Below, in pieces: positions 7,847 to 24,412 of a stretch of DNA of 33,677 nucleotides. Made by a program: the position numbers and the translations under genes. This stretch comes from Verrucomicrobiaceae bacterium (GTDB taxonomy: Bacteria; Pseudomonadota; Gammaproteobacteria; Pseudomonadales; CAMLJR01). Every line of letters begins with the position of its first letter. Position 1 is the first letter of the stretch. The notes beneath the pieces are model-generated. The model searched no databases, was not told the origin of the DNA, and saw only the letters and a program-made list of their open reading frames with translations. The DNA is taken from positions 1 through 33,677 of the forward strand of contig JAQGNY010000050.1 of the NCBI GenBank assembly GCA_028293825.1, given 5' to 3'.

Positions 7847-7875
7847 TTGACGATGGTGGATCTATATCTTAAGAT
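7847..7875 (+). promoter_or_regulatory. sigma70-like promoter of the padR gene
   Basis: TTGACG (7847-7852) and TAAGAT (7870-7875) are separated by exactly 17 bp, a good match to the sigma70 -35 and -10 hexamers. The -10 lies inside the palindrome at 7864-7877. The ribosome-binding site AAGGAG follows near 7901-7906. Confidence 0.5.
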
Positions 7876-7898
7876 ATGTTTTTAATCCTATCTTGAGA
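7864..7898. promoter_or_regulatory. candidate PadR operator pair
   Basis: A perfect 14-bp palindrome ATATCTTAAGATAT occupies 7864-7877. A second, imperfect site TATCTTGAGA is at 7889-7898. The TATCTT half-sites start 23 bp apart, about two helical turns, so two dimers could bind one DNA face. The first site covers the putative -10 hexamer, which fits autorepression by the PadR protein encoded immediately downstream. Binding is inferred, not shown. Confidence 0.55.
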
Positions 7899-7912: not shown

Positions 7913-8614
7913 ATGCGTATTTTCTTCCATCGCCTGCATGAAGCGGTTCATCGCCATCACCACCACCATCATATGAGCCGGCGCGGCCGGGGTTTTGCAG
8001 GCTTCGGCGGTCGCGGTGGTTTTGGTGACGGCCCATCCGGCGCCGGTTTCGACGGCTTCAACGGCGGACGCAAACTAGGTTCGGCCGATTTGCAGTTGTT
8101 ATTGCTGACACTGCTGGCCGAGCGTCCCAGCCACGGTTATGAGTTGATCAAAATTCTGGAGGAGCGCTCCAACGGTTACTACGTGCCCAGCCCCGGTATG
8201 GTGTATCCAGCGCTGACTTATTTAGAGGAGCTCGGCCACGCCAGCGTCGAACAACAGGGCTCGAAAAAGCTGTACCGCGTCACCGATACCGGCCTGACTT
8301 ACTTAGAAGGTCGACGCGCCGAGATTGACGCATTGCTCGAACAACTCGCCTATATCGGGCAGCGCATGGAAGACGTGCGCCGGGCGATGGGTCGCGGCGA
8401 TGTGGCCGATGATGCCGCCGATTTCGACGCGCCGCAGACATTTGATGGGCGCGGTCGTCATGCCGCAGGGGCGCCTGAAGTGCGGGCCGCGCGCCGCAAC
8501 TTGAAGTCTGCGCTGATCGCTAAATCGGGTGCTTCGCTGGACGAGCAGCGCCGCATCGCGTTAATCCTCGAGCGCGCCGCTGCGGAAATTCGCGATGCTG
8601 CCGACAACAAATAA
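7913..8614 (+). CDS. PadR-family transcriptional regulator with His-rich N-terminus (YqjI-like)
   Basis: A DNA-binding repressor of 233 residues. The N-terminus holds a run of His (six at 15-20, with others at 6, 9 and 13). A Gly/Phe/Arg-rich linker follows (about 22-52), then the PadR winged helix at about 55-135 (LLLLTLLAERPSHGYELIKILEE, then SPGMVYPALTYLEELG). A C-terminal helical region ends with a YqjI-like LxxAL...LERAAAEI segment. E. coli YqjI has the same order: a His-rich metal-binding arm, PadR domain and helical tail, and it responds to nickel and iron. Metal sensing here is therefore a reasoned inference. ATG 7913 has a strong AAGGAGAG site. It is followed after 36 bp by an MFS exporter and preceded by an operator-like palindrome. 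Confidence 0.9.
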   Translation: MRIFFHRLHEAVHRHHHHHHMSRRGRGFAGFGGRGGFGDGPSGAGFDGFNGGRKLGSADLQLLLLTLLAERPSHGYELIKILEERSNGYYVPSPGMVYPALTYLEELGHASVEQQGSKKLYRVTDTGLTYLEGRRAEIDALLEQLAYIGQRMEDVRRAMGRGDVADDAADFDAPQTFDGRGRHAAGAPEVRAARRNLKSALIAKSGASLDEQRRIALILERAAAEIRDAADNK

Positions 8615-8621
8615 ACCAGTT

Positions 8622-8654
8622 AGGAGTTATGCAATGAAGGAGCTTCAACGATGA
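8622..8654 (+). repeat. duplicated ribosome-binding site and start, with a 6-codon mini-ORF
   Basis: Two related units, AGGAG-N7-ATG (ATG at 8634) and AGGAG-N8-ATG (ATG at 8651), lie in tandem. The first ATG opens a 6-codon frame (MKELQR) whose TGA at 8652-8654 overlaps the MFS start codon as ATGA. The arrangement is that of translational coupling. It could equally be a neutral duplication. Confidence 0.55.
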
Positions 8655-9922
8655 ATGCTGTGCCGCCCGCTAACGCGAAACCAGCGCCGCGCTCATTCGC
8701 GGCGCTGCGTCATCCCGGCTTTCGCGCTTTTATCGCGACCTACATGTTGGCAATGATGGCCGACAATATCGAGCACGTGATCAGCTACTGGGTCATGTAT
8801 CAAAAATTCCACTCATCCGCACTCGGCGGTTTCGCGGTGCTGTCGCACTGGCTGCCGTTTCTCGCGTTCTCGGTGCCGGTCGGCGCATTGGCCGATCGGT
8901 TCGATCCGCGCCGTATTATTCAGTGTGGTATGGGACTCTTTATTACCGCGTCAGTGGGTTGGGGCTATTTCTTCATCACCGACTCGCTGCAGATGTGGCA
9001 CGCGATGTTATTGCTGGTGATTCACGGTTGCGCCGGCGTGTTATGGCAGACCTCAAGTCAGCTTTTATTACACGACATCGTGCCGGCCACCGAGCTGCAA
9101 AGTGCGGTGCGACTCAACGCCACCGCTCGTTATCTCGGTGTGTTGGTCGGTCCTGCCGTCGGTGGTTTGATCATGCTGGCGCTCGGCCCATCGCACGGCA
9201 TTTTGCTGAATACCGTGTTTTATTTACCGCTGGTGTTATGGCTATGGAAGGCGCCGTACGGGCCGCGGTTTCGAGCAGGAAAGCCCGCACCGAAACGCGC
9301 TGTGCGTGGTTTTGCCGATATCACGCAGACGATTCGCGATATTGCCAATCAACCCGTGCTTATAGCGATGATCGTGCTCGCCGGTGCGGTTTCGTTCTTT
9401 ATCGGCAACAGCTACCAGGCACAAATGCCGGCTTTTGCATTGGATCTGGGGCACGGCAATCCGGGTATTTCGTACAGCATGTTGTTGGCGGCGGATGCGG
9501 CTGGCGCACTCGCGGCCGGTTTTCTGCTCGAAAGCTCTGGGTTGCTAACGCCGAATGCGCGCACGGCATTAATGTTGGCGATGGTTTGGTGTGTGGCGCT
9601 GGTGAGTTTTGCTATGGCGCGAAATTATCCGCTCGCGCTGCTGTTGTTGTTTATTGCCGGCTTCTTCGAATTATCGTTCAGCAGTATGGCGCAGACATTG
9701 GTGCAGATAAATGCGCCAGCCGATATTCGCGGCCGCGTTATCGGTCTTTTTAATATGTCCGCATTGGGTCTGCGCGCATTTAGTGGCATTACTGTCGGCC
9801 TGATGGGCACATTGATCGGTGTGCACAATTCATTGGCGGGATCGGCGTTGGTGCTATTGGCATTGATCGCCTGGCTGCTACTGCGCTCATCGAGATCTGC
9901 CGCGCTCGCCAGAGACAATTGA
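8651..9922 (+). CDS. MFS transporter, EntS-like (MFS_3 type)
   Basis: A 423-residue inner-membrane major facilitator with about 12 hydrophobic segments, probably an exporter driven by proton antiport. The loop motif after the second helix, GALADRFDPRR (78-88), matches MFS motif A. The sequence style (AALRHPGFRAFIATYML at the start, VGPAVGGLIM, QINAPADIRGRVIGLFNM) fits the MFS_3 group that includes the enterobactin exporter EntS. ATG 8651 follows AAGGAG by 8 bp. It is transcribed with the His-rich PadR gene (36 bp gap), so its expression is probably set by that regulator. A substrate linked to metal stress, such as a siderophore, chelate or toxic compound, is an inference from that pairing. 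Confidence 0.9.
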   Translation: MNAVPPANAKPAPRSFAALRHPGFRAFIATYMLAMMADNIEHVISYWVMYQKFHSSALGGFAVLSHWLPFLAFSVPVGALADRFDPRRIIQCGMGLFITASVGWGYFFITDSLQMWHAMLLLVIHGCAGVLWQTSSQLLLHDIVPATELQSAVRLNATARYLGVLVGPAVGGLIMLALGPSHGILLNTVFYLPLVLWLWKAPYGPRFRAGKPAPKRAVRGFADITQTIRDIANQPVLIAMIVLAGAVSFFIGNSYQAQMPAFALDLGHGNPGISYSMLLAADAAGALAAGFLLESSGLLTPNARTALMLAMVWCVALVSFAMARNYPLALLLLFIAGFFELSFSSMAQTLVQINAPADIRGRVIGLFNMSALGLRAFSGITVGLMGTLIGVHNSLAGSALVLLALIAWLLLRSSRSAALARDN

Positions 9923-10046
9923 CACCATTTCGTTTTTAAATACATTCATTTTTAAAATAAATGATGCAACTTGCAGAATGGTGTTTACTGCCAAAGGCTT
10001 CGGTAATAAACCTCTGCGATTGGCGCAGCGTTGATGCTCTGCCTTG

Positions 10047-10088
10047 CATTAATAAAAGTGTATTAATAAAACTGCATTAATAAATTTG
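10047..10088. repeat. three tandem 14-bp repeats
   Basis: Units CATTAATAAAAGTG, TATTAATAAAACTG and CATTAATAAATTTG run head to tail without gaps, 43 bp before the start of the beta-barrel gene. Their position in the promoter region could affect expression. They may also simply be slippage products. Confidence 0.85.
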
Positions 10089-10130
10089 TATCGTGCGTTA
10101 ATCATTGCGGCGGGAAATTAGCGAGAAAAT

Positions 10131-10868
10131 ATGCAGCGCGCACGAGCTTCACTTTCTATTTTCTCTATTGTTTTCGCGGCTATAAATCTCGCCATTAACG
10201 CGACAGCCGATGAAGCGCCGGATAAATCCATCGACTTCAAATTATTGTCATCCTTCTATCAGGTTTCCGACGGCAATCACGCCAACGATATTAATTTGCG
10301 CGCCAAGACCGACAATCAAACCGGCTGGGTCGGAATTTACCGCGACCATAATGGCTTTCAACAGGAACGCGTCGGTTATGAAAATACGCAAGCTTTCGAC
10401 CACTTTCACGTTACGTTATCGCCCGAGCTGGCTTCCGGCGGCTATATCGGCGGCTCGATAGAAACGGAGTGGGGCGACGATACCTACCTCATCGCCGGTT
10501 GGAGTCGCACTAATTTAAAACCTTTTTACAATTTGAATTTCGATCCCGGCGATGCGTTGACGCTTGGCATTGGCTCAAAAGCGTTTGCGCGAACCGAACT
10601 TTCGCTCTACCACATTTGGGATGATCGACTGGGCACCGAGCAACAGGTAACGCATGCAGTGGCACGTTATGAAATTTCTCCAGATCAACACTGCGCGGTG
10701 GACATGGCATACAAGCGCGGCTTTTCCGATACTGGGAAATTCGTCGAAGGTTACTCGATGATGTTAAGTTACGATTACGACAGTTATTTCGTTCGTATCG
10801 GCCGCGATCAGTATGTGAATTTTTCTCACGTGATGCAGAATACTTTCGCGCTGGGGAAGAATTTTTAA
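10131..10868 (+). CDS. outer-membrane beta-barrel-like protein of unknown function
   Basis: A 245-residue exported protein. The signal peptide covers about residues 1-26 (cleavage after ATA). The mature part consists of alternating strands rich in Tyr, Phe, Gly and Asp, such as GWVGIYRDHNG, GGYIGGSIETEW and DTYLIAGWSRTN. A conserved-looking FYNLNFDPGDALTLGIG block lies near its middle. It ends in FALGKNF, a terminal Phe typical of BAM-assembled barrels. I recall similar uncharacterised proteins in beta- and gammaproteobacteria but no assigned function. It stands alone: the upstream MFS gene ends 208 bp before, and the DsbA-like gene starts about 98 bp after. No clear ribosome-binding site is visible before ATG 10131. 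Confidence 0.75.
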   Translation: MQRARASLSIFSIVFAAINLAINATADEAPDKSIDFKLLSSFYQVSDGNHANDINLRAKTDNQTGWVGIYRDHNGFQQERVGYENTQAFDHFHVTLSPELASGGYIGGSIETEWGDDTYLIAGWSRTNLKPFYNLNFDPGDALTLGIGSKAFARTELSLYHIWDDRLGTEQQVTHAVARYEISPDQHCAVDMAYKRGFSDTGKFVEGYSMMLSYDYDSYFVRIGRDQYVNFSHVMQNTFALGKNF

Positions 10869-23506: not shown

Positions 23507-24412
23507 TTAAGGCGTCGATGGCGCGCGCGACGGATGTAATACCAAACCTTCGGCCTCCACATCGACGCGCGCTTCGCCATAAATGCTGAGCACGAGTTTT
23601 AGTTTTTCGAGAAAACGCGGATGGAAATGATGGCGGTTGCGATACGAGGTGCCGAAGCAAGCGTCGAGATCGTCCCATGACACGCGCTCGGTTGCGCGCA
23701 TCACGGGCAGTCGATACGCCAGCCAAAAATAAATATCCAAGCCGAGCGATTGATTGCTGAGTTGCGACAGTGCAGTGACAGGAATGCGGGTCGGATGATT
23801 TTTAATTTCACTGTAAAGCTCGGCGCTGAGTCGCACCATATTGCGTTTGCTCGGATCGGGACGCGCGCCGCGAGGCACCGGATCGGGACGCATACCGTTG
23901 ATGCAGAATTGATCCCAGGTTGCACCCTCGTAACCATTGCCGCCAAACGTCGTGAGAAAATGATTGCTGAATAAACGCAACTCTTGATCCTGAAACGCCG
24001 CATACGTTTTACCGCCAATCGATAAACCGAAACGTTCGGCCCAGCGGTTTAAAGAAATACCGCCGCGATCGATTTCAAAGCTGTCGCTATCGGCACTCCA
24101 GGTAATTAAATACGCAAATAGCATACGTGCGCGCGGACCGAACGGAACGCCGAAAGCCTGACCCACTTTATCGCTGTGTAAAAACAGTCGGCCCGGTTCG
24201 ATGATCAACGAAAAGCTGCCGAAATCCTTTATCCACACTTCGTGGCTGCGTTGCGCGCGATGCGGCAGCGTAATCATATAGGCGATCGCGCGGGGGATGC
24301 CGCGCATGATCGGATTCGCGTCGAACAAGCTGCGTAGAATGGCGACGGGTTCGTCTTGCGGCGCGTGTGCGATACACGTTGGTGTGCGCACTATTGAAAG
24401 ATCGGCTGCCAT
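23507..24412 (-). CDS. plasmid RepA-family replication initiator-like protein (RepA_C)
   Basis: A 301-residue protein whose sequence order matches the plasmid-encoded RepA family (RepA_C). It has a basic LPHRAQ segment, then FSLIIEPG; GVPFGPRARMLFAYLITW at 88-105; and ISLNRWAERFGLSIGGK, a candidate DNA-recognition helix. MVRLSAELYSEIKNHP (192-207), LGLDIYFWLAYRL (223-235) and VSWDDLDACFG follow. The tail FLEKLKLVLSIYGEARVDVEAEGLVLHPS is the typical ending. Such proteins bind iterons and start plasmid replication. The neighbours (kinase, exonuclease, metabolic genes) look chromosomal and no partition gene, toxin-antitoxin system or transposase is seen. It may be a relic of an integrated plasmid, a chromid initiator, or a domesticated regulator. 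No strong ribosome-binding site precedes ATG 24412. Confidence 0.85.
   Translation of the reverse strand: MAADLSIVRTPTCIAHAPQDEPVAILRSLFDANPIMRGIPRAIAYMITLPHRAQRSHEVWIKDFGSFSLIIEPGRLFLHSDKVGQAFGVPFGPRARMLFAYLITWSADSDSFEIDRGGISLNRWAERFGLSIGGKTYAAFQDQELRLFSNHFLTTFGGNGYEGATWDQFCINGMRPDPVPRGARPDPSKRNMVRLSAELYSEIKNHPTRIPVTALSQLSNQSLGLDIYFWLAYRLPVMRATERVSWDDLDACFGTSYRNRHHFHPRFLEKLKLVLSIYGEARVDVEAEGLVLHPSRAPSTP

Follow-up and report, generated by a model that had tools for sequence, protein, structure and literature searches.

A Cys-free homologue of NfeR with a histidine-rich arm and its MFS partner: a candidate metalloregulatory operon with an exchanged output

What does a regulator related to E. 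coli NfeR (YqjI) control when its neighbour is a transporter gene? The E. coli protein is a repressor of nfeF, and an excess of nickel lifts the repression (available part of PMC7981267, after Wang et al.). We addressed this question in a 33,677-nucleotide stretch of contig JAQGNY010000050.1 (the window), where a PadR-family gene is followed by an MFS gene. The features considered were as follows.

7847..7875, + strand: predicted sigma-70-type promoter TTGACG-17-TAAGAT (consensus scan)
7864..7877, no strand: operator-like palindrome ATATCTTAAGATAT, overlapping the predicted -10 hexamer (conservation in the clade)
7892..7897, no strand: CTTGAG, a degenerate second box that follows the first CTTAAG by 24 nt
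7913..8614, + strand: NfeR-type PadR-family regulator, 233 aa (PF03551 60 bits, alignments, AlphaFold)
7928..7972, + strand: codons spanning the nine arm histidines H6, H9, H13 and H15-H20 (direct reading)
8651..9922, + strand: MFS transporter, type A, 12 helices (PF07690/PF05977, 10-homologue alignment, AlphaFold)
23507-24412, - strand: RepA_C-type plasmid replication protein (28.9 bits, cut-off 26)

Both open reading frames, and the six consecutive His with three more in the N-terminus of the regulator, were found as the initial annotation had described them. The N-terminus reads MRIFFHRLHEAVHRHHHHHHMSRRGRG, with His at positions 6, 9, 13 and 15-20, encoded by a mixture of CAT and CAC codons. 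The Pfam PadR score of 60 bits compares with a cut-off of 27. In the AlphaFold model, residues 1-51 had pLDDT below 50, and the arm, judged from this model, is probably disordered. C-terminal to it, a confident PadR winged helix was followed by C-terminal helices, and the fold matches were to PadR proteins. The proposed relation to YqjI also held: BLAST aligned the window PadR domain with E. coli NfeR at 39% over 88 residues (E 2e-21), and multiple alignments extended the similarity into the C-terminal region. On these alignments, the window regulator is a distant, Cys-free homologue of E. coli NfeR. It has the PadR architecture and, as a matter of composition only, the nine His before the PadR core; arm Cys and an adjacent nfeF/SIP gene are absent, the neighbour being the MFS gene. 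No Cys was found in the window regulator, nor in four of the five other regulators at least 60% identical to it (the exception, at locus L138, has two). The conserved Cys of E. coli NfeR are reportedly needed for its nickel response.

The arm was compared across 49 NfeR-type loci, made up of the window, five annotated loci (L006, L056-L059), L007-L009 and 40 of 57 further distinct matches (the 57 exclude G327; near-copies are counted among the 49, L010 and L060 were left out before the count, and five plasmid records were taken from 104 matching). His accounted for 13.0% of the arm stretch (up to 60 residues) versus 2.3% of the remaining protein, an enrichment beyond chance and in line with the suggested likeness to the arm of YqjI, and 37 of the 49 regulators had at least five His in the stretch. 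Arm loss in homologues from the same operon had been named as counter-evidence; the five regulators found beside the window's type of MFS all keep 5-13 arm His. Runs of 6-8 His occurred in 5/49 regulators (window, L068, L071, L073 and L080, the last three being close relatives of one another). The nearest relatives of the window regulator, L007 (74% identity) and L008 (72%), have longest runs of three and two, with 11 and 8 arm His in total, arranged differently. The exact run of six is therefore not special. By these comparisons the His-rich composition is a family trait kept in the arm and the run of six is incidental.

The regulator and MFS genes lie on one strand, separated by 36 nt at the window, 8 nt in L008 and 2 nt in L061, and this layout is that of one operon. 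The window MFS protein scored 114 bits with MFS_1 (PF07690, cut-off 33.4), also matched MFS_3 (PF05977), and gave an AlphaFold model of mean pLDDT 86 with MFS fold matches. It had previously been labelled EntS-like, a label that we could not sustain: the score with the EntS model NF007792 was 73.3 bits, where the cut-off is 324, and direct BLAST with E. coli EntS aligned 25% over 77 residues (E 0.021). The MxcK model was not among its matches, a sequence search of solved structures gave nothing useful (best E 0.82), and plasmid records contained no match at E 1e-30. D38, E41 and H42 in the first membrane helix were present in 10/10 aligned type-A homologues. Among 195 relatives of the L008 genome, its own counted in, 10 had a type-A protein at E 1e-50; with the window and L138 this makes 12 genomes (a separate 399-genome sample is outside this count). 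An NfeR-type regulator lies beside the gene in five of the 12, and the other seven, with proteins 59-66% identical, have no such neighbour. Conversely, the L007 genome has the regulator and no type-A MFS at E 1e-20. We also observed that the L008 pair sits between likely S-(hydroxymethyl)glutathione dehydrogenase and S-formylglutathione hydrolase genes (L008:2813-7909, translations read).

The predicted promoter places the palindrome over the -10 box. A consensus scan around it gave three promoter-like sites versus 2.6 expected, and the scan alone proves nothing. A -35 element, a spacer of 17-18 and TAAGAT inside the palindrome were common to the window, L007, L008 and L061, and in the same four a second box of CTTRAN type lies at exactly 24 nt (CTTGAG in the window, CTTAAA in L007, CTTAAC in L008, CTTAAG in L061). 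Neither the -35/-10 layout, by the same rule, nor the 24-nt box was found in L062 or L138, both of which have the palindrome (in L138 a 300-nt stretch held no good site and a 400-nt stretch an exact one). The exact 14-nt palindrome occurs once in the 4.3 Mb window genome assembly. When no more than one mismatch is allowed, its 12-nt core, the TATCTTAAGATA palindrome, precedes 32 of the 34 regulators in the window's clade, the consensus being derived from the window, which is counted by construction. The exceptions were L151 (no palindrome found) and L056 (two mismatches). At the same stringency the core preceded 0/15 regulators outside this clade, E. coli included. By a simple -35/-10 rule, the palindrome lies over or beside a promoter-like -10 in 25/49 loci, and the match level of the window was reached in 0/200 resampled upstream sequences.

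With up to two mismatches allowed, the window genome held three further copies, none of them persuasive (a control pattern gave one per strand). One falls within an SDR-like gene, one at the 3' end of a kdsA-like gene that is followed by an enolase-like gene, and one about 70 nt past the end of a 1392-nt ORF (C40:103148). A longer pattern gave one further place, in C34 with two mismatches. Because the site over the -10 box goes with the regulator, autorepression can be argued for. From its sequence setting, the window regulator looks like an autorepressed metalloregulator, probably with a single target, whose output has changed from reductase to exporter.

We compared the partner genes of the 49 loci, counting a gene as nearby when a BLAST match of more than 35% identity started no further than 2500 nt away, whichever the strand; the labels set by hand for L006, L140 and L150 agreed with this rule. 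A ferric reductase (SIP/NfeF) was nearby in 29 loci. Two loci (L144, L151) had a regulator-SIP-MFS triplet with a second kind of transporter, type B, and three (L063, L064, L070) had type B without SIP. Type A stood beside the regulator in five (window, L008, L061, L062, where it is cut by the contig end, and L138), and ten loci had neither SIP nor either MFS type, some of them truncated where the contig ends, as at L076. The two types align at 26% over 155 residues (E 3e-4). Two of the five type-B proteins (L064, L070) were scanned with models and scored 342-344 bits with MxcK (cut-off 525), the next model reaching 108-122. As MxcK was their best match, the exporters in these operons lean to siderophores, and the SIP-MFS-B triplet likewise ties type B to ferric-siderophore handling. 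At L067 (4967-6298), a convergent flavin-reductase-like gene adjoins the NfeR-type regulator instead of SIP.

On the regulator tree, where 13/46 inner branches are starred, the type-A pairs fell within one starred clade of seven rows, which also holds L007 and L143, both without type A; the type-A label needed two changes (the L138 regulator, its end being uncertain, entered the tree in shortened form). The 34-row clade of the window (support 100/99) contains SIP, SIP with type B, type B alone and type A as partners. By gene neighbourhood, at least two different MFS types became partners of NfeR-type regulators. An MFS protein in place of the ferric-chelate reductase had been seen correctly at the outset, as had the departure from the E. 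coli arrangement; the module is not singular, since the family shows several such changes of partner. In a limited body of papers searched, we noticed no account of an NfeR-MFS pair and no joint mention of MxcK and myxochelin. No paper there combined PadR with a siderophore-interacting protein, an MFS transporter and an operon, and one mentioned the PadR family, an MFS transporter and siderophore export.

The genome setting bears on how the pair arrived. At E 1e-3 the window regulator matched 4 of 55 related genomes (one of the same genus, the rest of the same order; best 8e-9), and in a class sample of 274 genomes, the window's own included, two others matched at 1e-12, one of them being L009, with a His-rich PadR beside SIP. 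Close named orthologues occur in betaproteobacterial MAGs. The window RepA was 34-37% identical to plasmid RepA proteins (best 8 of 768 matching records), and the contig may be plasmid-derived. Because of these orthologues and the RepA-like gene, horizontal or plasmid-borne arrival of the regulator-MFS pair appears likely. Elsewhere in the window, three overlapping 19-nt direct repeats with a 14-nt period (10045-10091) precede an ORF at 10131 that has no Pfam match.

In the window genome we found a SIP match on another contig, no second regulator of NfeR type at E 1e-3 and no match to IucA/IucC. NRPS condensation domains were detected at C12 (two strong) and C20 (one weak). The genes after those at C12 look like exopolysaccharide or polysaccharide-export genes (translations read), and the C12 genes were discounted as a siderophore cluster for this adjacency. 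With no IucA/IucC match and the C12 domains placed by exopolysaccharide-like genes, no siderophore of its own is evident.

Homology, arm, operon layout, the palindrome with its conservation and the change of partner can be read directly from the DNA and its relatives. We give roughly even chances to the reading that the two genes form an autoregulated metalloregulatory operon, in which metal bound by the arm derepresses an exporter of chelator or siderophore type. The NfeR-type protein, presumably a dimer, would repress the regulator-exporter operon by occupying the palindrome at the -10 box of its own promoter. A divalent metal, by analogy with NfeR most likely Ni2+, Co2+ or Fe2+, would bind the flexible His arm and loosen the repressor, and upon derepression the MFS protein would be made. 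This protein would most likely move a small chelator, a siderophore-type molecule or a metal complex out of the cell, taking the place held by the ferric-chelate reductase NfeF in other family members. Repression, metal binding, the inducing metal, the direction of transport and the substrate are what we infer here. Metalloregulation is favoured by the NfeR homology and the family-wide His arm, and control of the operon by a palindrome that lies over the -10, is unique in the genome in its exact form and is conserved in relatives. Repression finds a parallel in E. coli NfeR and in an 85-fold increase of nfeF in a Klebsiella nfeR mutant (available part of PMC7981267).

Several results weaken parts of this mechanism. 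The regulator has no Cys, unlike E. coli NfeR. In the available part of the same article, sensitivity of the Klebsiella nfeR mutant to nickel and to iron starvation (dipyridyl) was unchanged, which counts against the mechanism and means that phenotypes may be slight. Chelator export is made less secure by an MFS protein that is not EntS by score and does not have MxcK among its matches, and by the want of an evident siderophore. Coupling of regulator and MFS is loosened by the seven of 12 type-A genomes without an adjacent regulator and by the L007 genome, and the operator model by the failure of the second box and of the -35/-10 layout in L062 and L138.

The transporter might instead export the metal ion itself, as ferroportin does, making the module a plain metal-efflux system. 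D38 and H42, four residues apart and kept in 10/10 type-A homologues, have the spacing of the ferroportin TM1 metal site Asp39/His43 (available part of PMC7655804), and a His-arm sensor beside a metal exporter would make a simple loop. However, the fold match lacks specificity, ferroportin (8bzy_A) being 50th among 433 PDB matches at E <=0.001. Ferroportin has metal sites in both lobes, Asp-His in TM1 and Cys-His in TM7/TM11 (available part of PMC7655804), whereas no second-lobe ligand site was identified in the window MFS. Type-A homologues without the regulator also keep D38 and H42, which may therefore serve the general transport cycle, and we regard metal-ion export as unlikely. We judge it similarly improbable that the genes form an ordinary drug or aromatic-compound efflux pair, with a PadR protein that answers an organic ligand and an arm of no regulatory importance. 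Many PadR-fold matches were to the organic-ligand regulator LmrR, genes of catabolic type occur in the window (P450, short-chain dehydrogenases, TonB receptors, an AraC-type regulator), and the genes flanking the L008 pair, from their translations, are formaldehyde-detoxification-like. Against such a pair stand the His enrichment over the 49 relatives, the homology to the metal regulator NfeR, and clade-mates with a ferric reductase under the same palindrome.

Finally, the arm could sense nothing and serve to store metal, or be a low-complexity tail prone to slippage, its His number drifting freely. Its length and His number do differ greatly between loci (raw ORFs of the typed loci, some over-extended, have 0-38 His ahead of the PadR core). 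A GGGCAT tandem repeat encodes the Gly-His arm of the Cupriavidus metallidurans regulator (L056:4700-4900), and the PadR regulator Rmet_4198, only possibly the same gene, gained extra G and H residues in a laboratory C. metallidurans mutant (available part of PMC13192273). Yet the enrichment in His has persisted through great divergence and the order of residues has not, as expected of selected composition, and we think a non-sensing arm very unlikely.

On the metalloregulatory reading, a single kind of metal sensor has apparently been connected to different outputs in bacteria. More tentatively, and with less than even confidence, we suggest that NfeR-type sensors could be widespread portable metal switches whose reductase was joined or replaced by exporters, type A exporting a chelator or chelate. 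If this were true, the same metal signal would drive export or recycling of chelators or siderophores, and not intracellular iron release. Apart from this suggestion, the comparisons place the E. coli regulator in a family that shares an operator-like element and whose outputs are exchangeable, and palindrome and arm together offer a cheap handle for predicting metal-controlled exporters. Two MFS subfamilies, the unassigned type A and the siderophore-exporter-like type B, appear to be co-regulated with ferric-siderophore reduction.

Among known systems, the enterobactin exporter EntS shares with the window MFS a weak similarity at the level of the MFS, far under the EntS cut-off, and the myxochelin exporter MxcK (NCBIfam NF038077) is the best model for type B, the window MFS being of another subfamily. 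The PadR-SIP operons of Burkholderiales (for example Mycetohabitans L059, Cupriavidus L056) have regulators about 50% identical to that of the window, same-strand neighbours and the window palindrome at one mismatch in L059 and two in L056; their second gene encodes a siderophore-interacting ferric reductase, whereas that of the window encodes an MFS protein. E. coli NfeR has in common with the window regulator the PadR domain, a His-rich N-terminal arm, a similar C-terminal region and upstream TATCT/AGATA elements, although its half-sites are arranged as TTAGATATATCTAA upstream of nfeR and not as TATCTTAAGATA. Its arm carries seven Cys versus none in the window regulator, and its partner is the divergent ferric reductase gene nfeF (yqjH), in contrast to the same-strand MFS gene of the window.
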